DNA of 22,882 nucleotides from a virus, in the IMG/VR virus record IMGVR_UViG_3300032360_000053, positions 1-22,882 of that record; one strand, 5' to 3'. A program made the translations under genes and the position numbers. Positions 1,629 through 22,882 of this stretch are shown piece by piece (within the stretch, counting starts at the first letter, position 1; every line of letters begins with the position of its first letter). Below the pieces are notes generated by a model. It made no database searches, had not been told where the DNA came from, and saw nothing but the letters and a program-made list of their open reading frames with translations.

Positions 1629-4070
1629 ATGGAAACGAATACTATAAACAATCTGGCAGATATTCTAGAGAATAGAATAACCTCCAGAAAGAACAACAGA
1701 TCTGGAGCTGCTAAGTTATTTAGAGACACTCAATGTCTTTATAACGACTTCAGAAGCGTAAAGATACTTAATAATACCTTTAGTTTCCTCATCCAGAAGT
1801 TTAGAAAGGGTGACGGAATAGCTAAACTAACAGCAACCTCTAAGAGTATTGGAGATATTGCTATAAACATACTAAACCCCCAAGGATTCGATCCTAGCGC
1901 TGCAAACTCCCTCATGGTAGGTGACTTCGTGTTAGATCTTTTAATCGACGAGAGGTACCTTATCTTGAACCGTGAGCCTTACTTTAGAGTAGAGGAGGTG
2001 TATGACAAGGGTATTAAGAAGAAAGTTAACTATAATCCTTATGTCTTAGAAATGGGGCAAGAGTTCCCTAAAATATCCCTTGATCCTAGAGATCGTATAG
2101 GTATATCTCTAAGACCTTACAAGTCGTGGGTTAAAGGTAGACGAGTAACTGAAGGGGTACAAGAGAACTTAATAAAGTCTACTGTGGATGTTACCGAGCA
2201 ATTCGATAACTCACTCTTCATGAAGTCCATGGAAACCCTTGAAAATGTTAAATGGAAGATAAACCCTGACATTGCTAAGATAAGTCTTCTGTTAAAGGAC
2301 AAATTAACAGAAACATTTATAACCTTGGAAGACTTTGAAGGTAACGATGTGCCATTTGACACCTCTGACATACGTAGAGATGATGTAAACGCACACCTAA
2401 AGGGTATTGATGTGTATCGTAACGGAGATATCTTCGAGCCACACAGAGGTAACTCATCTACTGTGCCGACTCTTGAGAAGGAAGTGGAAAGACTAACGGC
2501 TAGACTTAAGAAGCTAAAGAACAAGAAGAAGCTGGAAGAAACAAGAGAGGCTCTTCATAAAGTTCATAAGGCTTACAATCTAGAGAACCGTAGATGGACT
2601 GATAAGCAATACTGTCTACGTACTCAATCTCAAGCTGCTCGTAACAAAGCAATTATAGAGACTGTTAGTGGTACGGAAACACAACCCGGATGGTTAGGTT
2701 ATGAGTTCTACCAAGGTATGTATCTAGACTATAGGGGTCGTATATATAACAAAGACCCTTACTTTAGCTACCAATCAAACGACCTTGCAAGGGGACACTT
2801 CCTGTTCGCTACAGAAAAAGAGCTCAACCAAGAAGGTGTTGAATATACCTTTATGCATGTCGCTTCCTCGTTCAACCAAACGTATTCGCTGGAAGAACTA
2901 GAAGCTACTGACTGGCTAGAGTTAGATTATATATCAGAACTCAAGAAGCAAGGTCTGTCAGATATATCTGTAGATAAGATGGGTGTTAACGATAAGCACA
3001 ATTGGACGGTAGAACATATCGACCACTTACTTGACGTTGCTGAGAACCCAATGGAACACTTAGACTACTGGATGTCTGCTGAGAAGCCTTGGGTTTTCCT
3101 ATCGTTATGCTTTGAACTTGGAGGAATCGTTGGTGCTTCACTGACTGGTGATCCTTACATGTCTGGTATGCCAATCTCAATCGACGGAGTTAACAACGGA
3201 ACGCAGCATTTAGCAGCAATGTCTCTTGACGAGAGAGCTGGTGAGCTTGTTGGGTTAACACCGATGGATATGCCTAAGGATTTCTACTTAACTATTGGTA
3301 GAGAAATGATAACTCTTAACGAGGATACTGACATAGGTAAGAAACTAAGAAAGATCCCTATGAAGCTCATTAGGAAAGGTATTAGCAAGCGTGGCTCAAT
3401 GACAAGGGCTTACGATGCTGGCTCTAGAAAGATTGGTGAAATTATCTATCAAGATTCCTATGATGCTGGTATCACAGCCAAGTATAAGATAACAAGGTCA
3501 GACTCAAGAGCATTGGGTAAGGACTTGGTGTCGGCATACGATACTGTCTGCTGTGGGCCTGTTAAGATTAAGAAGTACCTTCAGGCGCTCGTGAAACACC
3601 GTGTGAAACAGATGAGAGTTAAGGATGTGTCTTGGACAACTCCTTCAGGATTCCCTGTGCTCACTCAGAAGTGGGTATCTCGTAAGAAAAAGTACCAAGG
3701 GACTCTACAAGGTCGTACTATAGGTCACATCTATCTTGATGTAACAGATACACCTGCCTTAGCTGAGCACCTGTCTGCAATCGGAGCTAACTGGGTACAC
3801 TCTTATGATGCTAGTCATATGTCTATGGTGATAAACAGTTTGGGTCTTGAATCATTTGGTGCTATTCACGATAGCTTCAGTGTTCATGCTGCTGACGTAG
3901 GTTTTCTTATAAACACAACCAAGGAGGAGTTCATAAAGATGTACGAGAAAGATATATTCTCTATCATGAGGGACGAGCTAATATATAATGAGCCTTTCGA
4001 TGAGAAAGAACCTGAGCTTGGCTTACTGACACTAGAGGATATAAGAGGTTCGGACTTCTTCTTTTGCTAA
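1629..4070 (+). CDS. T7-type single-subunit DNA-dependent RNA polymerase
   Basis: An 813-residue single-subunit RNA polymerase (T7 RNAP is 883). Motifs visible in order: DYRGR at 367-371 (T7 DxxGR), motif A IDGVNNGTQH with catalytic D519, motif B KRGSMTRAY with K587 and Y595 (same eight-residue spacing as T7 K631-Y639), HSYDASH, and motif C IHDSF with catalytic D748. The C-terminus SDFFFC matches the conserved SDFAFA foot of T7 RNAP. Oddly, the residue after Y595 is Asp where T7 has Gly640. A strong GGAGG (1620-1624) precedes ATG 1629. It would transcribe phage genes from its own promoters in the host cytoplasm. Unlike N4 RNAPII, which is split into two proteins, this enzyme is a single chain. 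Residues 113-125 are encoded by a repeat shared with the gene at 15258. Confidence 0.95.
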   Translation: METNTINNLADILENRITSRKNNRSGAAKLFRDTQCLYNDFRSVKILNNTFSFLIQKFRKGDGIAKLTATSKSIGDIAINILNPQGFDPSAANSLMVGDFVLDLLIDERYLILNREPYFRVEEVYDKGIKKKVNYNPYVLEMGQEFPKISLDPRDRIGISLRPYKSWVKGRRVTEGVQENLIKSTVDVTEQFDNSLFMKSMETLENVKWKINPDIAKISLLLKDKLTETFITLEDFEGNDVPFDTSDIRRDDVNAHLKGIDVYRNGDIFEPHRGNSSTVPTLEKEVERLTARLKKLKNKKKLEETREALHKVHKAYNLENRRWTDKQYCLRTQSQAARNKAIIETVSGTETQPGWLGYEFYQGMYLDYRGRIYNKDPYFSYQSNDLARGHFLFATEKELNQEGVEYTFMHVASSFNQTYSLEELEATDWLELDYISELKKQGLSDISVDKMGVNDKHNWTVEHIDHLLDVAENPMEHLDYWMSAEKPWVFLSLCFELGGIVGASLTGDPYMSGMPISIDGVNNGTQHLAAMSLDERAGELVGLTPMDMPKDFYLTIGREMITLNEDTDIGKKLRKIPMKLIRKGISKRGSMTRAYDAGSRKIGEIIYQDSYDAGITAKYKITRSDSRALGKDLVSAYDTVCCGPVKIKKYLQALVKHRVKQMRVKDVSWTTPSGFPVLTQKWVSRKKKYQGTLQGRTIGHIYLDVTDTPALAEHLSAIGANWVHSYDASHMSMVINSLGLESFGAIHDSFSVHAADVGFLINTTKEEFIKMYEKDIFSIMRDELIYNEPFDEKEPELGLLTLEDIRGSDFFFC
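1964..2003 (+). repeat. 40-bp dispersed repeat, copy 1 (inside RNA polymerase gene)
   Basis: These 40 bases match 15926-15965 at 37 positions by direct comparison. The three differences are at repeat positions 20, 24 and 36. The segment encodes LNREPYFRVEEVY here and LNREPYLKVEEVY in the other copy, so both are read in the same codon phase. This copy lies where a T7-like polymerase is expected to have a conserved N-terminal-domain segment, so it is probably the donor. Confidence 0.9.
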
Positions 4071-12930: not shown

Positions 12931-13743
12931 ATGTTTAAAGAGTTTTTAAAAGAAACACAGTGGTTACTTATAATTGTATTCGGAGTAAGCTTAGCCTTAG
13001 GAGGCACAGCACTACATACAATTAAAAAGAACTACGATATAAAGGAGGATACAAAGGGAATCCCTGATCAGATCTGGGAGATACGAGAGTATGAAGAGAA
13101 GAAAGGTCTTAAGTTTACCAAACTATCAGAGACTCTATATAGTATGACAGGTACTGTAAGGAAGGATGATTGCAAGAAGATTGTACCACAACTTCCAAAT
13201 GAAATGCCATTCGCAGTTATATTAGAATCTCCCGGTGGAGACCTAGCAGAAGGAGCTTGTCTGGCATCCCATCTGAAACTAAGAAATGTTATAACAGTAG
13301 TTAGGGCATCAAGAGTGCTTGACGAAAACGGTAAGATATTATACGAACCCGGACTAGTTAACACAGATCCTAATGAGAAGAGAGTTATGTGTGCATCTTC
13401 ATGCTCACTATTATTCTTAGCTGGTGATATAAGATATCTTATAGGAGATGTATGGCTTGGTATTCATGCACCAAGAACTCCTGAGGAATATATAAATAGC
13501 ATGGGAAGACAGGCACTAGAAGCTAATGCATACAGAACTTCTGCAGCGCTTATGGACCTGCTTAAAAACTTAGGACTAAGTAGCGAGAAGGTGAGACTAA
13601 TGTTTCTTCAGGTCCCATCATCATCTATGTACTGGATTAACGTGAAAGACTGGAAGGAAATGCCAGAGCTTATGTTAATGGCTACTCACTATGTAGACTT
13701 CTGGGGCTTCTCTGGTGAGAACGTTCTAGCAGGAAAAGAATAA
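12931..13743 (+). CDS. Membrane-anchored ClpP/crotonase-fold serine protease (COG3904-like)
   Basis: A 270-residue protein with an N-terminal membrane segment (about 11-30, WLLIIVFGVSLALGG). Its body has a ClpP-like fold pattern: LESPGGDLAEGACLA at 98-112 (substrate-binding/oxyanion strand), then CASSCSLLFLAG with candidate nucleophile S156 or S157 at 154-165, and GIHAP with H179. This order matches the uncharacterised COG3904 group, exported relatives of ClpP and SppA. With one N-terminal anchor the catalytic domain probably faces the periplasm, though orientation is inferred. It is the first gene of a membrane cassette and is followed after eight bases by the SbmA-like gene. Substrates are unknown. 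Confidence 0.75.
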   Translation: MFKEFLKETQWLLIIVFGVSLALGGTALHTIKKNYDIKEDTKGIPDQIWEIREYEEKKGLKFTKLSETLYSMTGTVRKDDCKKIVPQLPNEMPFAVILESPGGDLAEGACLASHLKLRNVITVVRASRVLDENGKILYEPGLVNTDPNEKRVMCASSCSLLFLAGDIRYLIGDVWLGIHAPRTPEEYINSMGRQALEANAYRTSAALMDLLKNLGLSSEKVRLMFLQVPSSSMYWINVKDWKEMPELMLMATHYVDFWGFSGENVLAGKE

Positions 13744-13751
13744 GGAGTATT

Positions 13752-14777
13752 ATGTTAAAATCATTTTTCTGGACGAGGGCTAATGCCTTCTATGCATGGG
13801 CTATGTTGTCTGTGCTTTTAGGAATCTCTTGGTTCACTGTAGAGATTCTAGTTTATTACAACGCGTGGAACAGAGAGATCTATGACGCAATCCAATCGCT
13901 CCAAGAGGAGAGGTTCTGGATGTTGTTCTTAAGCTTTGACTTTGGTAGGATCGGGGACGTTATACTCCTCAAGGAAGATGTAATGCCTTCCTTCCTAGAG
14001 ATCATTGCGCTATACACACCTATAGCTGTGTACGGTGCATGGCAGACACAAAGGTATTGCTTTAAGTGGAGAGAGTCTAACACTCATCACTACTTAAGGA
14101 GATGGAACAAGTGCCCTGCTAAGATCGAGGGTGGCTCTCAACGAATACAAGAAGACCTGATGATGTTTGGTAAAATCCTACAAGGATTGTTTACTGGATT
14201 CTTCTCAGCCATACTTGTGTTGTTTGCATTCCTTCCAATCCTTTGGGAACTATCTGAAGGCCTACCCGTATGGAATGGAGAAATCATTCCGGGGTTCTTG
14301 GTTTGGGTAGCGCTTGGAGTATCTATTGGTGGCACCGTTATATCTTTATTGCTTGGTTGGAAACTACCTAAGCTAGAGTATAACAATCAAGTAGTCGAAG
14401 CTAAGTTCCGTAAGCAGCTGGTACACTCAGAAGATAACTTTAAGGACAGAGCTCTTGAAGTACTGTTCCCTATGTTCTCATCTGTTAAGAGAAACTACTA
14501 TAGATTATTCAACTGGTACATGGGTTTCGGTGTATGGCAGACAGCATTCGGTTTATGTGTGGGCAACCTAGCATTGATCGTACTCGCACCTGCTTACTTC
14601 CAACAGCTTATTACCTTGGGTATTCTGTTCCAAGTGCTTAATGCTTTTGGCAGAGTAGAAAGCTCTATGGCATTCTTTATTGACAGGTGGACTACAATCG
14701 TAGAGTTCCTATCTATCATCAAAAGGATACGTGAGTTCAACAGAGCATTAGATGATGCTGAGGAGAAAGGTGCATGA
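13752..14777 (+). CDS. SbmA/BacA-like inner-membrane peptide transporter
   Basis: A 341-residue multi-pass protein that I align from memory with E. coli SbmA (406 aa) along most of its length: AWNREIYDAIQ, then KWRESNTHHYLRRW (105-118), IEGGSQRIQEDLMMF (125-139), WKLPKLEYNNQVVEAKFRK (203-221), SSVKRNYYRLFNWYM (243-257) and DRWTTIVEFLSIIKRIREF (311-329). SbmA/BacA proteins are dimeric, proton-driven importers of peptides across the inner membrane and lack the ABC nucleotide-binding domain, as here. The shorter length reflects a missing N-terminal membrane segment. It overlaps the ExbB-like gene by four bases (ATGA). A peptide transporter in a phage is unusual; it may import peptides, change drug or microcin sensitivity, or act in superinfection control. 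Confidence 0.88.
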   Translation: MLKSFFWTRANAFYAWAMLSVLLGISWFTVEILVYYNAWNREIYDAIQSLQEERFWMLFLSFDFGRIGDVILLKEDVMPSFLEIIALYTPIAVYGAWQTQRYCFKWRESNTHHYLRRWNKCPAKIEGGSQRIQEDLMMFGKILQGLFTGFFSAILVLFAFLPILWELSEGLPVWNGEIIPGFLVWVALGVSIGGTVISLLLGWKLPKLEYNNQVVEAKFRKQLVHSEDNFKDRALEVLFPMFSSVKRNYYRLFNWYMGFGVWQTAFGLCVGNLALIVLAPAYFQQLITLGILFQVLNAFGRVESSMAFFIDRWTTIVEFLSIIKRIREFNRALDDAEEKGA

Positions 14778-15256
14778 AGAAAACATTGATTAGGTGGTGG
14801 CTATTTACGGTCATCACCTTGTGTGGGGTGTGGCCGTTATGGAGCGCAGGAATCTTTACAGATATATACTTAGCTGACGTTACAAACATTAGCTTTGTTA
14901 TCTACGGAGTGTTCTTAATCTCAGTGGTTCTTACAGGCATCGCTGCCTATAGGATATCTTTAGGGGGTGAGGATAGACGGTTCACCACAAGAACAAATAA
15001 GTATATAGACATCTGTTGGTTCTTAGCAGAAACAATGATGGCTCTTGGTCTTGTAGGTACTGTTGCAGGTATGATATATCTGTTCGGTCAGATCTTTGTA
15101 GAGATAGACCCTAGCAACCCTGATGATTTAAAAGAAGCACTGTCACACATGGCAACGGGATTGTCCACTGCAATGTACACCACTATATGTGGTATGGTAG
15201 GAGCACTAGCAGCAAAGGTTCAACTGATGAATCTAGAGTTCGGTCAGGAGAAATAA
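14774..15256 (+). CDS. MotA/TolQ/ExbB-like proton channel subunit
   Basis: A 160-residue membrane protein with about four hydrophobic segments (roughly 6-22, 37-59, 83-108 and 121-148). The last two carry the family signature: ALGLVGTVAGMIYLF (90-104) and MATGLSTAMYTTICGMVGAL (126-145), as in ExbB, TolQ and MotA. These proteins form pentameric rings around a two-copy ExbD/TolR/MotB partner and turn proton flow into mechanical work on the envelope. The partner appears to be the next gene, one base downstream. The large cytoplasmic loop of TolQ is much reduced here. Four-base overlap with the SbmA-like gene points to co-translation. Confidence 0.85.
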   Translation: MKKTLIRWWLFTVITLCGVWPLWSAGIFTDIYLADVTNISFVIYGVFLISVVLTGIAAYRISLGGEDRRFTTRTNKYIDICWFLAETMMALGLVGTVAGMIYLFGQIFVEIDPSNPDDLKEALSHMATGLSTAMYTTICGMVGALAAKVQLMNLEFGQEK

Positions 15257-15257
15257 T

Positions 15258-15986
15258 ATGGATCGTGCCAGATTTAAAAGTATGACGGCATTCTTAGACA
15301 TGCTCTGGATTCTGCTTGCAGGATTCGGGGCGATGTTTATCATAGCCTTTATGCTTATACAACCGCCAGCCAAGAATGCAGATGTCATTAAGAAGGCTGA
15401 GTTTATTATAACACTTGAGTGGGAGCCAACATCTGAGGATGACCTAGACATATGGATTAGAGATCCCTCAGGAAACGTAGTGTCCTTTAGACAGAAGTCT
15501 GCAGGTCTTATGAACCTAGAGAAAGATGACCTAGGTAAATCAAACGATTCCTTCACGGATGAAAACGGAAACGTACACACCATTCTTTTAAACAAAGAAG
15601 TGATAACGCTTAGAGGTGTTGTTGCTGGTGAGTATGAGGTTATGGTCCATGTCTATTCAAGAAAGTATACAAAAGGTTTCGACATGTCTCAAGGCAATCT
15701 TTCTGTAGAGGTTATTAAGATCAACCCTTATGGAATTGTATATAAAAACAACTACACCTACAACAAGAGAGGACAAGAGATAAGTATAGTAAGGTTCTCT
15801 ATTGCAAGCGACGGAAGTTTTATTGGCTACAACACCATGCCTTCAAACATTATCGGAAACGCAGGTACAAACTACAACCCTCCAATTGGAAGGGAGAATG
15901 TAAGTGAATGGAGGCCCCACTTAACCTTGAACCGTGAGCCTTACCTTAAAGTAGAGGAGGTATATAATGGATATAGATTTAATTAA
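15258..15986 (+). CDS. ExbD/TolR-like partner with periplasmic beta-rich domain
   Basis: A 242-residue protein with one N-terminal membrane segment (12-34, FLDMLWILLAGFGAMFIIAFMLI) containing an aspartate, D14, at the position of the proton-carrying Asp of ExbD, TolR and MotB. The rest should be periplasmic: residues 48-185 are beta-rich and include DDLDIWIRDPSGNVVSF and AGEYEVMVHVY, resembling DUF2135/YfaP-type beta-sandwich domains, not the usual TolR or peptidoglycan-binding OmpA domain. The C-terminal tail (224-236) is encoded by a 40-bp repeat also present in the RNA polymerase gene, so the end looks chimeric. It overlaps the next gene by 20 bases. I infer a stator-like pair with the preceding protein. 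Confidence 0.75.
   Translation: MDRARFKSMTAFLDMLWILLAGFGAMFIIAFMLIQPPAKNADVIKKAEFIITLEWEPTSEDDLDIWIRDPSGNVVSFRQKSAGLMNLEKDDLGKSNDSFTDENGNVHTILLNKEVITLRGVVAGEYEVMVHVYSRKYTKGFDMSQGNLSVEVIKINPYGIVYKNNYTYNKRGQEISIVRFSIASDGSFIGYNTMPSNIIGNAGTNYNPPIGRENVSEWRPHLTLNREPYLKVEEVYNGYRFN
15926..15965 (+). repeat. 40-bp dispersed repeat, copy 2 (3' end of ExbD-like gene)
   Basis: Matches 1964-2003 at 37 of 40 bases. Here it encodes the tail LNREPYLKVEEVY and its AGAGGAGG also forms the ribosome binding site for the gene starting at 15967. The same codon phase in both copies argues for a copied coding segment, not random similarity. Confidence 0.9.
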
Positions 15987-16434
15987 AAATATAATCATCA
16001 TCTCCTTCTTTATTATGACTGTCTTCTCTTTGATAGTTGTAATAAGGTACGGAGGTAAGAACGCAGGAATATATTTCCTGATACCTATTATGCTTTTCGT
16101 ATCTGTTTATGTAGACAGGAACATTGAAAAGATAATGGGGTACCCAGTAACTGCTGAAGGTATAAGTGGTGAGAAGATGTACATACACCACATGGTCAGT
16201 AAAGATAAGAACTGGATATACATATGGACTGTAGATCCGAACTCAGGTGTAGCGCCAAGGGCTTATAAGATACCCTACACACCTGAAGATGAAAAGAAAA
16301 TGGCAGAAGCAAATGATAAGAAAGGAAAAGGTTTACCACAAGGTATTGAACTACCGAGTGAAACAAAACACGGTGGCGATCCGGTTGGGATAAAGCTATA
16401 TGATTTTAATAAGATGAAAGGAGTTACAAAGTGA
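15967..16434 (+). CDS. Two-TM hypothetical membrane protein (155 aa)
   Basis: The 155-residue product begins with two hydrophobic segments (about 8-26, NIIIISFFIMTVFSLIVVI, and 33-48, AGIYFLIPIMLFVSVY), followed by a soluble domain with a YIHHMVSKDKNWIYIW strand pair and a lysine- and proline-rich tail. With two TM helices the soluble domain is probably cytoplasmic. The gene starts within the 3' end of the ExbD-like gene and its stop overlaps the GTG of the ClpP-like gene, so it belongs to the same cassette. The family is not recognised; a linker between channel and cytoplasmic protease is an inference. Confidence 0.8.
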   Translation: MDIDLIKNIIIISFFIMTVFSLIVVIRYGGKNAGIYFLIPIMLFVSVYVDRNIEKIMGYPVTAEGISGEKMYIHHMVSKDKNWIYIWTVDPNSGVAPRAYKIPYTPEDEKKMAEANDKKGKGLPQGIELPSETKHGGDPVGIKLYDFNKMKGVTK

Positions 16435-17006
16435 GTAAGAATAATCAAGAAGGATTGGAGATGATGATCCCACCTAAGGTAGAGCTGCTAAGTAAGGGCG
16501 TATACATAATGATGGGAGATGTAACTCAAGAAAGTATGGCCCCAGTTATTGACTGGATACTTAGTGCGAACATGAAAAAGAAAAAGCCCAAAGAGTTGAC
16601 ACTGGTTGTCTGCTCTAGGGGCGGAGATCTTAACGCTTGCTTTGCACTGGTAGATGTTATCATGGGGTCAAAGATCCCAATCAAGACCGTCGGTCTAGGA
16701 ATGATTGCATCTTGTGGTCTGCTGCTATTCATGTCGGGAGAAAAAGGAAGCCGAGTGTTGACACCAAACACTGCCATCCTGTCTCACCAATACAGTTGGG
16801 GAGCAATGGGTAAAGAGCACGAGCTGTTTGCTAGAGTGAAAGAGATGGAGTTAACAACTAAGAGGCTACTAGATCATTACAGAAAGTGTACTGGTCTAAC
16901 TGAGAAAGCTGTACGTGAAAACCTCATGCCACCGCATGACGTATGGCTAAGCGCTAAAGAGGCTAAGAAGTTTGGTATCTGTGATAGCGTGAAGAAACTA
17001 ACTTAA
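16431..17006 (+). CDS. ClpP-like serine protease (complete catalytic triad)
   Basis: A 191-residue ClpP-fold protein close to the length of ClpP. The triad is present: S94 in GMIASCGLLLFMSG, H119 in ILSHQYSWG and D170 in HDVWLSAKEAKKFGICD. The CSRGGDLNACFAL segment (61-73) is the substrate-binding strand. No signal peptide or membrane segment is visible, so it should be cytoplasmic, perhaps as a multimer. It starts with GTG at 16431 in a GTGA overlap, with AAAGGAG upstream. It could be a capsid-maturation-type phage protease, but it lies among membrane genes, far from head genes, which favours a role with the cassette. Confidence 0.88.
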   Translation: MSKNNQEGLEMMIPPKVELLSKGVYIMMGDVTQESMAPVIDWILSANMKKKKPKELTLVVCSRGGDLNACFALVDVIMGSKIPIKTVGLGMIASCGLLLFMSGEKGSRVLTPNTAILSHQYSWGAMGKEHELFARVKEMELTTKRLLDHYRKCTGLTEKAVRENLMPPHDVWLSAKEAKKFGICDSVKKLT

Positions 17007-18145: not shown

Positions 18146-18193
18146 CAAAACAACCCCAACAGGTTCCGTAAAGGATCCCGTCGGGGTTTTTTT
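18146..18193. terminator. Bidirectional terminator between convergent gene blocks
   Basis: AACAAAACAACCCCAAC pairs with GTCGGGGTTTTTTTGTT around a 19-base inner region. The GC stem is 18154-18160 with 18180-18186 (one mismatch), and T7 follows at 18187-18193. Read on the minus strand the flanking A-rich left arm supplies a T-rich tail (TTGTTTTGTTT). It stops both the rightward early block and the leftward virion block. Confidence 0.85.
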
Positions 18194-18196
18194 GTT

Positions 18197-21100
18197 TTAA
18201 CTTCTTGCGTACTTGGTTGAACTCTTGTCCCAGAAGAACTGTCTGATATGTGTAATATCTTTGTCCATCTGTTTACGTTGAGCTTCAATATAAAAGAGCT
18301 TCTCTCTAAGAGTTTTCGATCCCATTATAAAGTTGCCAGAATCGTCAGACATGTCTGGAGTATGCCAATCAAATGCATCCCCATCATACCTTGAGTTCCA
18401 AGTTGAGACACCGTTAGCTTCAGCATCAGCTGCTGCCAGTGGCTTAAGTCTCCTCTTGTACCTCTGAAGATCCATGGACTCCTTTGTTCTAGAAAGGCCT
18501 ACATCAGCAGGTCTCCTAGTGCCCGGAACAGGATCTAAGATACGTCTACCGTCATTGCCTAACTCAAAGGTCAAGGAATCAAACACATTCATCACGTGGC
18601 TTGAGTCTACATTGAGCTGTCTGAACACGTCATTCATTTCTTTTGTATACTCACCAGCCTGTAAAGGAGTTACGAACAGACCATCAAAGACTTGGAGGGC
18701 GGTGTTACCAGCCATCCCCATCTTACCACGACCTCTAGCAAGGATCCTCTTGTCCATATTAGACATAGCTCTGTTGATATTGATAGAGTCGTTAGCATGA
18801 TTAAGCATCACAGTGATCTGAGACGCAGCCTTAAGACTATCGGGATCTAAACCTGCAGCCCAATAGTTAAACTCTTTCTTTGTCATCCATGAAGAGCCCT
18901 GCTTCTTAACAGGCTTCATCTCTCCGGTTTCCTTATCAACAGTGTGTCGTCCAGTAGCAAAAGAATATCTAGTCCTACTCTCCGGATCAATACTAACCTC
19001 TCTTTTTCCAAGGTTAATCCTGTAGCCAGCTGTAGTTGGTATCGATAATGTAAAGTCTTGTCTATGTGCAATCGACGCTGCTGTTGACAAAGCGTTACCA
19101 AGCTCTTTAACAATACCAAACTTCTGTCCTACGGCTTCTGCCATAGACACACCAAGTGGTAGTATAAAGTCCTTCTCGATATCAATGCCACTCTCTAGTA
19201 ATGTATCTCTAAGGTGTGGTTTCTCTGCAAACAAGTCTGTCATAAACGATTGAACAGATTCTAAAATCCTAGCAGGACCAGCACCATAACCAAAGATCAT
19301 CACAGGTTTCTTAGCAAAAGATCTTCCAAGGATTCCTCCTTGCTCACCTATCAAAGACATAGCGTCCCTGAAGTTCTTAGAGTTAGCGCCTCTCAGAATG
19401 GTTTTAAAGGCAGCAGAAGTCTGTTCGGTAATAGTACCTTTGAACCCTTTCCTTTTCCCATCCTCACTCCAAAGCCATCTTAAGTTTTTCTTAAGCTCAT
19501 CGTCAAGCATTTCATAAGCGTCATCAAACTTCTTGTCGCCCTCTTTCCATATCATGTATTGCTTATCTGCGAATAGGTTAGTAGCTCCTGCAAGTTTAAT
19601 ATCTCCACTCTGCCAAGCAGAATGAGCCATGCCGTTTGTAAGTCCGTCAATCTCTGTCAGGAATCCTGAAGAGTAATAGTTGTGACCCGCGTCGATAGCT
19701 TTTTGAAACTCAACGGCCTCTGCCATTGCAGCTAACGATGCCCAGCCTTCGTGCTTACCGGCAAGTTCCATCGCCTTGATAGCACCGTCGCCCTGTAGAT
19801 CATTAAGCGCATTCGTAAAGGATGCAATATGAGTATCGTATTCTCTGGCTGCGGCTTCTACATCTTCCTTATCGAACCCGAACCTCTTCATGATACCAGC
19901 CTTCATGACTGTCTTATTGTACTCTGAGTTAGGACCTGTCAAGTTATATATAGAAGGTATGCCAGCAGCAATCATAGATCTTGCAAGCTTACTATGCTGG
20001 AAGTTTCCAACAGTCTGATCAACACTCATTCTATTATTGACACCATAAAAGTAATCATAATAAAACGGCTTGCCACCTGCGTTTCTTTCAGCCCACTGTA
20101 GGTCTTTCTTAAAGGCACTGTCCTTAACGGTGTCACTCATGTCGTCAATCTTTTCTGCAAACTGAGGGTCGTTAGTAACATTACCAGCTTCATCAAGAAG
20201 TTGACTACGAGAGTTTCTTCTAAGAACATAACCAACTCGTCTACCAACTGTTCCTTTATTGTTATTACCATCGCCCTTAATCTTTAAGAACTTAGGTCCG
20301 TTCAAGAGGTTAACCGCATTAGGATTAAACAAGATAGCTTTTATAGCAGCTGCCGTTGGAGCATGAATAGTTACCGGAGTATTCTCCTGAACATTAATAT
20401 GATCCAGCTTCTCTTCAAGAGATCCGTGAGGTAAACCTTTGAGTCCTCTATGACCCCTAGGTATAACGTCCTTTAACATGGACTGCTTCTTCTCGTACCT
20501 AACATCTCTAACAGATGAAGGGATAAGTTGCTCAGTTAAATCTTGAAGCCTGTCTGCAAACATCTGACCCTTATGGGTAAGAGTTATAAGGTGGTTTGTT
20601 TTAGGGCCTTCTTCAGATGTGCTCTGAACAGTTTCTATTTCAAATAGCTTGTCTTCCCATAGGTTATCCGCACCATCTTCTTTTTCAGAGAACGTGTTGG
20701 ATACTATGTTCCTAGCAAGTGAACCTGCTAAGCTCTTCTCTTTTGGTGAACTTTCTGTAGCACCCATAGAGTCAAGAATCATGTGACCAATTTGACTATC
20801 GTCAGCAATACCTGTCATTGCATCAGAGTGATCTTGATCTTCTCTCTCGACACTATCAGACTGCTCATCTCTTAGACGAGCCTTCCATGTATTATTACGT
20901 GTCTGAGCTAGAACCGAGTGAAACATAATGTCTGACCAAGCTCTACCAGCATTGGGGTTCTGCTCAGCAATAGATGCATAACTAGTTACAAACTTAGTCA
21001 TGAACTCTGCAATACTTTCCGCGCTGTGAGTTCCCTCAGATGCCATCTTCTTGGCGATAACGTCTTGAACAGACGCTCCATAAAGGTTTGCATTTAAAGT

Positions 21101-21751
21101 CTCATTTAATGTATTGTGAGTCCTCTTGCCTGCATTGTAAGCATCCTCTTCCTCGGATGTGTTTGGATCCTTAAAGAAGAAGTCTCCCTCATCTTCAACA
21201 ACCTGACTAACAAATTGTGGATCCACCCAAGGTGTTGGAGTTCTAACATTATCCTTAGGGTACGAACCATCTTCATTGTAGCGAAAGTATTTATCGTCAC
21301 TCAATGTATTGAACGCCTTACCAAGGTGTCTTCCAAACTCCTCATAGAGTGCTGGATTAGTAGCAACATCTTGAACAGATACGCCACGCTTCTCAGCAAA
21401 ATCTTCTAGCTCTACAAGCTCCTGCTCTTTAGTTAGGTTTGGTTGTGCATAAGCATCGTCACCAACTCGGCTCTTAATAAGGTCAGCCCAACCTTGATCT
21501 GAAGATATGGATGCACCAACACTATTAACAACTGGACCTGCCACGTTAGGACCTGCAACGAGATCCTCCGTGACAGCTGAGTCATAAACGGTATCAACAA
21601 TATCGAGAACACCTTTGGCTGCCTCTTCTGTTTGAGGACCAACATTAAGGAGATCAATAAGATCCCCTAATGCGCCCGTCGCCTCTCCCTTTCTCTTAAA
21701 GGGTGCAACTTGTTGTTGCCCCTTAACGGTAGCGGTACTTGTATAAGCCAT
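18197..21751 (-). CDS. Virion-type (N4 vRNAP-like) single-subunit RNA polymerase
   Basis: An 1184-residue protein in which I find the single-subunit RNA polymerase motifs in order. Motif A: EIDGLTNGMAHSAW with D702. Motif B: AKKPVMIFGYG with K814 and Y822 (spacing eight) and G823. A segment LNHANDSININ (983-993) matches the HSxDxSH element before motif C, and motif C: VFDGLFVTP with D1023. An upstream YDYFYGVNNR (565-574) fits the DxxGR/TxxGR position. D702-K814 is 112 residues, against 111 (D559-K670) in the N4 mini-vRNAP. N4 vRNAP is about 3500 residues with a polymerase core of 1106; this protein is close to the core alone. It lies last in the leftward block at the convergent boundary, as gp50 does in N4. 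AGGAG precedes the ATG. I infer it is packaged and injected to transcribe early genes. Confidence 0.82.
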   Translation of the reverse strand: MAYTSTATVKGQQQVAPFKRKGEATGALGDLIDLLNVGPQTEEAAKGVLDIVDTVYDSAVTEDLVAGPNVAGPVVNSVGASISSDQGWADLIKSRVGDDAYAQPNLTKEQELVELEDFAEKRGVSVQDVATNPALYEEFGRHLGKAFNTLSDDKYFRYNEDGSYPKDNVRTPTPWVDPQFVSQVVEDEGDFFFKDPNTSEEEDAYNAGKRTHNTLNETLNANLYGASVQDVIAKKMASEGTHSAESIAEFMTKFVTSYASIAEQNPNAGRAWSDIMFHSVLAQTRNNTWKARLRDEQSDSVEREDQDHSDAMTGIADDSQIGHMILDSMGATESSPKEKSLAGSLARNIVSNTFSEKEDGADNLWEDKLFEIETVQSTSEEGPKTNHLITLTHKGQMFADRLQDLTEQLIPSSVRDVRYEKKQSMLKDVIPRGHRGLKGLPHGSLEEKLDHINVQENTPVTIHAPTAAAIKAILFNPNAVNLLNGPKFLKIKGDGNNNKGTVGRRVGYVLRRNSRSQLLDEAGNVTNDPQFAEKIDDMSDTVKDSAFKKDLQWAERNAGGKPFYYDYFYGVNNRMSVDQTVGNFQHSKLARSMIAAGIPSIYNLTGPNSEYNKTVMKAGIMKRFGFDKEDVEAAAREYDTHIASFTNALNDLQGDGAIKAMELAGKHEGWASLAAMAEAVEFQKAIDAGHNYYSSGFLTEIDGLTNGMAHSAWQSGDIKLAGATNLFADKQYMIWKEGDKKFDDAYEMLDDELKKNLRWLWSEDGKRKGFKGTITEQTSAAFKTILRGANSKNFRDAMSLIGEQGGILGRSFAKKPVMIFGYGAGPARILESVQSFMTDLFAEKPHLRDTLLESGIDIEKDFILPLGVSMAEAVGQKFGIVKELGNALSTAASIAHRQDFTLSIPTTAGYRINLGKREVSIDPESRTRYSFATGRHTVDKETGEMKPVKKQGSSWMTKKEFNYWAAGLDPDSLKAASQITVMLNHANDSININRAMSNMDKRILARGRGKMGMAGNTALQVFDGLFVTPLQAGEYTKEMNDVFRQLNVDSSHVMNVFDSLTFELGNDGRRILDPVPGTRRPADVGLSRTKESMDLQRYKRRLKPLAAADAEANGVSTWNSRYDGDAFDWHTPDMSDDSGNFIMGSKTLREKLFYIEAQRKQMDKDITHIRQFFWDKSSTKYARS

Positions 21752-21774
21752 CTATAACTCCTGTGTTATTTAGT

Positions 21775-22882
21775 TCATTCAACGAACCAATCTTTAACGC
21801 CCTTCTCTGTTCCAAGTATAGGGATTTCTTTAGCAAGGTATTTATTCCTTAGCTCTTCATTGCCTTCAAGCTGAGCCATAAATAGCCTTTGAAGATTCTT
21901 ACCGTGTTGGAATGTTGGACCAGCAAATCCTTCCGTAGCATCAAGCACGTGTCCAGTAACGGACTTGTGACCTGTGTCATACAAAGGACTGATAGCATCA
22001 AGGAACTTCTCTGGAGTGCCAAGCAATCCTGAAGAAGAGATGCCTCTCTGTACATAGCCCTTGTCTGTTATCCATCCGGGTCTTCCGTCGTACTTCCATT
22101 CGTCTTTAAGCATCTGACTAATGAAGCCCATCATTATCATTGTAGCTGCAATAGCTACTGCATTATACTGAGCTGTTGGATCAGCGCTCTTAACTTTCTT
22201 CCAGATCTTAGGTAGAATGTGTGCAGTAAATACAGACATGAAACCATTATACTGTGTGAACAACCTGTAGTGTGGATTAGAATACCACATAGGTCTATTC
22301 ATAGCTTCTGGATGAGCAATAGCATTATCAACCCAACTCATACGAGCAATGTCCATAGTGTCTAAGAACTTTGGATCTGCATTGATAAGATTAGTATAAA
22401 GATCTTCAGGAGATAGTTTGTTAACTTCCTCTTCGCCACCAAGTCTTTCAGTGACTGTCTTAAGAACGTCAGAGTATCTCTTAGATGTAGCATCCGGATC
22501 GATATTCAACTCTCTCAACCTACCGAAAGCGTCTTGGAACAGGCCACTGTTTCTTCCCGGGTGTCCGGGTGGGAACATACCTATAATCTCCAAGTCTCCA
22601 ACAATAGCATCGTTAGCTAAAGATAGTCGAGCAACCCTTGTAGCATCCGTGTATAGTTTCAAACCATTCATAAGGAAGAAGGCTTTCATAAACCTTTCTT
22701 TAATCTTGGATGTCTTGTACACAGCTTCATCAATACCTACTTGACCAATCGCACCGTGCTTTCCTGTACCGTAACCGTACCTGTAGAAGTCAGCAACATT
22801 CCTGACGTACTCGTCACGAGTAATGCCAGACTTTGGATTGATGTAAGACCAAGCGTCCTTACCTTGCATACTATAATGTTTG
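21775..22882 (-). CDS. Probable internal virion/ejection protein (5' end outside window)
   Basis: The frame remains open to the window edge (at least four codons beyond the ATG at 22869), so this is the C-terminal part, about 368 residues, of a larger protein. It has helical charged regions, an aromatic segment (RPMWYSNPHYRLFTQYNGF), a hydrophobic stretch (NAVAIAATMIMMGFISQML) and glycine-rich turns. This composition and its place immediately upstream of the virion polymerase in a leftward block suggest a large internal or ejection protein, by analogy with podoviruses; I have no diagnostic motif. It ends 23 bases before the polymerase gene. In N4 the equivalent N-terminal portion is fused to the polymerase, so this could be a split counterpart. 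Confidence 0.6.
   Translation of the reverse strand, partial: KHYSMQGKDAWSYINPKSGITRDEYVRNVADFYRYGYGTGKHGAIGQVGIDEAVYKTSKIKERFMKAFFLMNGLKLYTDATRVARLSLANDAIVGDLEIIGMFPPGHPGRNSGLFQDAFGRLRELNIDPDATSKRYSDVLKTVTERLGGEEEVNKLSPEDLYTNLINADPKFLDTMDIARMSWVDNAIAHPEAMNRPMWYSNPHYRLFTQYNGFMSVFTAHILPKIWKKVKSADPTAQYNAVAIAATMIMMGFISQMLKDEWKYDGRPGWITDKGYVQRGISSSGLLGTPEKFLDAISPLYDTGHKSVTGHVLDATEGFAGPTFQHGKNLQRLFMAQLEGNEELRNKYLAKEIPILGTEKGVKDWFVE

Follow-up and report, generated by a model that had tools for sequence, protein, structure and literature searches.

N4-like phages devote about a seventh of their genome to one giant, injected virion RNA polymerase (vRNAP), and the roles of the domains that flank its catalytic core are still debated. 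For N4 gp50, unpublished data cited (ref. 78) in PMC4496689 assign injection to the N-terminal domain (NTD) and encapsidation to the C-terminal domain (CTD), and a 2025 cryo-EM preprint describes the NTD as membrane-inserting and the CTD as an inhibitor of the polymerase (PMC12633501). N4-like vRNAPs are free of cysteine, a property that their authors have linked to cell entry (PMC3715699; PMC2784036), and all but two of the vRNAP-bearing species also carry a heterodimeric RNAPII (PMC4496689). An N4 survey that recognised vRNAPs by the motif ExDGxxxG first dropped all proteins shorter than 2500 amino acids (PMC10654107); compact vRNAPs could not pass such a filter, and surveys with this cut-off can therefore miss virion RNA polymerases. 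In Thermus phage P23-45, a packaged RNA polymerase (RNAP) begins early transcription and a non-virion RNAP follows; the packaged enzyme is a homologue of cellular RNAPs and forms a fusion with a tape measure protein (PMC10770324). Here we describe a gene from a 22.9-kb stretch of DNA (the window) of an uncultured short-tailed phage (IMG/VR record IMGVR_UViG_3300032360_000053). The open reading frame (ORF) at 18197..21751 on the minus strand encodes a compact, N4-type single-subunit RNAP of 1184 amino acids. We think it likely that this is a compact vRNAP: an enzyme made late, packed, ejected and transcribing early genes. At one third of the usual size, it would be a stand-alone form of the N4 vRNAP kind.

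The polymerase gene and its catalytic motifs

The polymerase ORF is a real gene. It begins with an ATG at 21751, contains no internal stops, is preceded in the sequence by a Shine-Dalgarno element (AGGAG, 21758..21762, minus strand), and is followed just beyond its stop, at a convergent junction, by a terminator-like hairpin (18170..18192, plus strand). A search of IMG/VR, with the protein encoded just upstream as first query and then with an alignment, yielded 12 homologues of the polymerase at 22-48% identity to it, making a family of 13 whose complete members measure 1039-1414 amino acids. PHROG 2206 ("virion RNA polymerase") aligns to residues 551-835 (E 4.7e-16), and the window polymerase scores above the curated cut-off of Pfam RNA_pol.

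The initial annotation of this DNA had picked out motif A (D702), motif B (K814, Y822, G823), a pre-C element (D988) and motif C (D1023) in the 1184-residue product. These residues proved exact and are invariant in 13/13 members, together with H985 and R574. Motif A (residues 699-707, TEIDGLTNG, with catalytic D702; 19631..19657, minus strand, as are the motifs that follow) fits the published ExDGxxxG, which is present in 11 of the 13 members, its final glycine being replaced by alanine in L009 and L010, and is not found in T7-like RNAPs. In the family alignment, motif B covers residues 810-823 (RSFAKKPVMIFGYG, with R810, K814, Y822 and G823; 19283..19324) and the pre-C element residues 985-988 (HAND, with H985 and D988; 18788..18799), and motif C is the FDG of residues 1022-1024 (catalytic D1023; 18680..18688), as in N4, whereas T7-like RNAPs have HDS. 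A fourth single-subunit RNAP motif, which the initial annotation had missed, is also present: GxNxR(574) followed by GNxQxxKxxR, a T/DxxGR-type motif at residues 570-591 (GVNNR574...GNFQHSKLAR591; 19979..20044) that aligns to N4 R424/NPQ/K/R, with G570, R574, G582, N583 and R591 invariant. The invariance of every catalytic residue down to 22% identity implies selection for catalysis.

Among PDB sequences, neither phmmer with the window polymerase nor hmmsearch with the family profile retrieved an RNAP, and relatives there were reached solely by profile-profile and fold comparison. The AlphaFold2 model built on the family alignment has a mean predicted local distance difference test score (pLDDT) of 62.9, the region of roughly residues 590-700 being modelled best (pLDDT 79-93). 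Foldseek against the PDB gave 74 matches at E <= 0.001. All 50 listed were single-subunit RNAPs (mitochondrial, T7 and the N4 mini-vRNAP entries 3c3l, 3c2p and 9pnq; E 4.9e-10 to 2.5e-13); E was 2.4e-11 for N4 mini-vRNAP 3c3l and 1.2e-10 for 9pnq, the N4 RNAP domain solved by cryo-EM. TM-scores were low (0.30-0.36 by query length), as expected for a model of modest confidence. A predicted structure without a palm/fingers fold, which would have spoken against the initial annotation, was thus not obtained; the matches support the single-subunit RNAP fold class, not fold detail. Beyond IMG/VR, the bacterial genomes searched held no homologue of the compact polymerase, and tblastn of cultured phages with three family members gave at most weak matches, to Schitoviridae vRNAPs. 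We also considered Pseudoalteromonas phage Y3 (Poorviridae) as a compact case and set it aside: its sole giant gene, which seems to be the ORF30 named as vRNAP in its description, encodes ~3400 amino acids.

Comparison with N4-type and T7-like polymerases

For comparison we used a Schitoviridae profile made from the polymerase region of five vRNAPs (N4, EcP1, pVa5, PT15-A5 and DSS3P2). With hhalign the compact family matched it at E 1.6e-18 (probability 99), against 1.3e-7 for the profile of T7-like RNAPs, the window's own included; by profile similarity, the window polymerase thus appears closer to N4-type vRNAPs than to T7-like enzymes, with which it shares a superfamily and a fold. The motifs point the same way. 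Motif A reads TEIDGLTNG in the window polymerase and EADGVTNG or similar in N4-type enzymes, against SIDGVNNG or AFDGSCSG in T7-like ones. ExDGxTNG, RxxxKxP, YGxG and FDG are common to the window polymerase and N4 vRNAP and absent from T7-like RNAPs, which have HDS in motif C and KR in motif B where the window polymerase has FDG and KxP, and which also differ in carrying several cysteines and lying in the rightward block. In a tree the compact, giant and T7-like groups separate with good support; being unrooted and of three groups, this tree leaves undecided which two are sisters and whether the compact or the giant form is ancestral.

The likeness to N4 gp50 extends from the T/DxxGR, A, B and C motifs to the lack of cysteine and the gene's location. 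The leftward block of the window starts at the right-hand contig end, and the polymerase ORF is its final gene. As the initial annotation had proposed, this is a gp50-like place: in the window and its relatives, as in N4, EcP1 and DSS3P2, the polymerase gene closes the structural block and converges on the genes for replication. The A-to-B spacing, claimed to be almost that of N4, is indeed 112 residues (D702-K814) against 111 (D559-K670), whereas the B-to-C distance is shorter (209 residues against 281). In length the protein stands, again as first noted, at about one third of N4 gp50 (3500 residues) and near the polymerase core, the mini-vRNAP of 1106 residues (998-2103).

Giant vRNAPs, by contrast, are proteins of 2842-3820 amino acids with an NTD and a CTD. 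Similarity to the N4 NTD was undetectable in the window polymerase, and the 161 residues that follow D1023 leave no room for an N4-type CTD. The initial description of a minimal vRNAP without giant flanking domains therefore holds for the domains and not for the size, since the family includes smaller members. Its premise that the N4 CTD directs packaging goes back to the unpublished data noted above (PMC4496689), while PMC12633501 describes an autoinhibitory role. A natural family lacking these domains makes it testable which functions need them: packaging, tail passage, membrane anchoring or autoinhibition.

A further difference concerns the partner enzyme. The window encodes a second phage RNAP, a monomeric T7-like protein of 813 amino acids with 6 cysteines (1629..4070, plus strand; PHROG 414 E 3.7e-94; Pfam RNA_pol E 2.6e-58), on which the initial annotation was silent and which makes this a two-polymerase phage. 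N4 pairs its vRNAP with a heterodimeric RNAPII of the gp15/gp16 type; none is found in the window. A T7-like RNAP occurs in 14 of 17 virus records of relatives (those of the type of CRP-7, a cultured phage discussed below, included) and in CRP-7 itself. The three records without one are two short fragments and an incomplete third (37.6 kb). The pairing of a compact vRNAP with a monomeric RNAP departs from the reported link between vRNAPs and heterodimeric RNAPII (PMC4496689). As a separate observation, phmmer placed the window's T7-like RNAP nearer to yeast mitochondrial RNAP (E 1.3e-38) than to T7 RNAP (1e-28), a match of possible interest for the origin of mitochondrial RNAPs.

Proposed packaging and ejection, and alternative explanations

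The initial reading of the protein as a virion-type polymerase is supported by its N4-type motifs, its gp50-like convergent place and its lack of cysteine. All 13 members of the compact family, the window polymerase included, contain no cysteine, as do the five Schitoviridae giant vRNAPs over ~3500 residues each, whereas the T7-like RNAPs encoded in genomes with a compact enzyme contain 6-13 and that of CRP-7 has 14. At the cysteine rate of the window's rightward genes, a run of 1184 residues without any would have a probability of 1.7e-8. The trait is shared by the genes just upstream. In the relatives, both the 1345-1384-amino-acid protein before the polymerase and the 507-815-amino-acid protein ahead of that are cysteine-free. 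Upstream sequence was available for eight relatives, and in each the polymerase starts 11-17 nt past the stop of the 1345-1384-amino-acid protein. In the window, where the contig end leaves only the C-terminal 368 amino acids of this internal virion-type protein (21775..22881, minus strand), the gap is 23 nt. The upstream protein matches PHROG 6958 ("virion structural protein"; E 4.4e-23) and, weakly, the "phage particle protein" gp50 of LUZ24 (E 1e-4). In one relative the operon ahead of the polymerase encodes products of ~200, 200, 195, 703 and 1384 amino acids, and terminase, portal and major capsid protein were found in one relative. We take proteins of ~200, 700-775 and 1345-1384 amino acids to be separate ejection proteins, of sizes reminiscent of T7 gp14, gp15 and gp16. 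The N4 vRNAP has no clear counterpart of the largest of them, similarity being confined to one short patch with the NTD (E 3.6e-4, probability 37) and none being detected with the CTD.

A side observation concerns the same large protein. Its N-terminal ~120 amino acids resemble staphylococcal nuclease (SNase; a PDB thermonuclease at E 0.003; best Pfam SNase E 0.012): DxDT, R, E and YxR are spaced approximately as in the SNase active site, and the residues R39, E47 and R93 are invariant. Full-length copies lie in L021 (5835-9986, plus strand), L009 (7067-11101, plus strand) and L002 (21573-25679, minus strand), and the domain may be a nuclease that is perhaps injected.

We infer packaging, ejection, catalytic activity and an early-gene role for the compact polymerase, and the sequence of events can be imagined as follows. 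The enzyme would be made late alongside the capsid and internal proteins and packed in the head with the cysteine-free ejection proteins. It would then be threaded through the short tail, either before the DNA or along with it, to refold in the host, where it would transcribe early genes, the phage's own T7-like RNAP (1629-4070) among them. The T7-like RNAP would then transcribe the remaining genes, a programme that the pairing with a monomeric 813-amino-acid enzyme makes likely. The jobs of the gp50 flanking domains, injection included, would fall to the separate ejection proteins, and the packaging signal is perhaps contained in the N-terminal 76 residues of the polymerase, which are poorly modelled. 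If so, an injected enzyme could exist without huge flanking domains, an arrangement common to related uncultured phages.

Several observations count against a packaged enzyme. With the N4 NTD and CTD absent, another packaging signal must be assumed. At the late-protein rates of three relatives, the probability of finding no cysteine ranges from 0.012 to 8e-7, so that part of the cysteine effect is a trait of the late block. The N4 promoter-reading residues W129, D901 and R904 are not conserved, in an alignment that is unreliable outside the catalytic core. Scans of the relatives for N4-type hairpin promoters gave no clear excess of 3-nt loops (the window itself holds little early region), and the GCGNAGC family was not found upstream of their early genes. 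Repeated intergenic motifs in the relatives were mostly Shine-Dalgarno-like and barely above shuffled controls, with no shared early-promoter motif.

The loss of the N4 packaging and injection domains, together with a gene that sits in the late block, could instead mean that the enzyme is active and never packaged, serving as a second, late-acting polymerase that is expressed from the structural operon and transcribes late genes in the same infection. Made only with the late genes, however, such an enzyme would come too late to start them. Its affinity is with packaged vRNAPs, and 13 divergent members without cysteine, like the internal proteins and giant vRNAPs and unlike the T7-like RNAP, fit passage through tail and periplasm. 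We regard this explanation as unlikely. Less likely still is a packaged ejection protein of RNAP descent that no longer transcribes and whose role in the ejectosome is structural. Activity may be lost in the branch of CRP-7, whose gp33 has an arginine in motif B and an unclear T/DxxGR arginine, but the window's own family keeps every catalytic residue down to 22% identity. It is also conceivable that the ORF is a fragment of a giant vRNAP, its flanking domains being present in the genome but separated from it by an assembly error or a frameshift, since an N4-like vRNAP is one ORF of ~3500 codons and the upstream gene, too, encodes an internal protein of large size, in which a weak NTD-like patch occurs. 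Yet the polymerase has its own start codon, Shine-Dalgarno site and terminator, homologues of 1039-1414 amino acids stand in the same two-gene arrangement in many independent contigs, and the upstream protein is otherwise without a counterpart in N4 vRNAP; we consider a fragment extremely improbable.

CRP-7 and neighbouring genes

A packaged compact vRNAP may have a relative in a cultured phage. Among phage records, the window's T7-like RNAP is matched best by Roseobacter phage CRP-7, a podovirus that infects RCA roseobacters and for which only one RNAP, ORF30, was reported (PMC6918029). In CRP-7, gp34 is a homologue of the upstream protein in the window (BLASTP E 2e-26), and the next gene product, gp33 (1235 amino acids, annotated as hypothetical; L002:17859-21566, minus strand), resembles the compact polymerase in lying after gp34 at the end of the leftward structural block, a gp50-like place, in having no cysteine, and in coexisting with a T7-like RNAP encoded at another locus. 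When gp33 and its relatives were made into a profile, it matched a profile of single-subunit RNAPs combined, across motifs A to C, at E 1.3e-5 (score 57), a value to be read in the light of this combined profile being the fifth tried; no shuffled, reversed or unrelated control scored above 28 or had an E better than ~0.09. Pairwise BLASTP of gp33 against the compact polymerase was not significant, nor was hhalign of the gp33 alignment against the compact, N4 or T7-like alignment alone. gp33 has arginine in place of the motif B lysine and no clear T/DxxGR arginine, and the AlphaFold2 model of its family (pLDDT 35) was uninformative and not used. We therefore treat gp33 as a lead, not an established RNAP: a candidate remote homologue of the compact vRNAP, in a phage that offers a system for examining the compact-vRNAP idea.

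More tentatively, we suggest a lineage of short-tailed phages with a cysteine-free vRNAP of 1039-1414 amino acids, separate from a T7-sized set of ejection proteins (the largest N-terminally SNase-like) and accompanied by a monomeric T7-like RNAP. This could represent either the state before fusion of the giant N4 vRNAP or a reduced form of it, and CRP-7, with its highly diverged polymerase relative, would belong nearby.

The rightward block of the window encodes, besides the T7-like RNAP, SSB, PhoH, a helicase, a primase, an exonuclease, RusA, endonuclease VII and a class II ribonucleotide reductase. SSB, helicase and primase are thus present, and yet the large rightward ORFs, in the window as in two ~50-kb relatives (G005, L053-L055; G006, L056-L058), included no recognisable DNA polymerase, though no systematic search was made. 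The ORFs at 12931-13743, 14774-15256 and 15967-16434 (plus strand) gave no significant family match where searched. They surround an SbmA/BacA-like peptide transporter gene (13752-14777, plus strand; Pfam PF05992 E 2.9e-76), a family matched by 4 of 50,697 phage records. A ClpP-like protease (16431-17006, plus strand; Pfam E 5.3e-29; PHROG head maturation protease 3.4e-21) lies in the same rightward block, away from the head genes.

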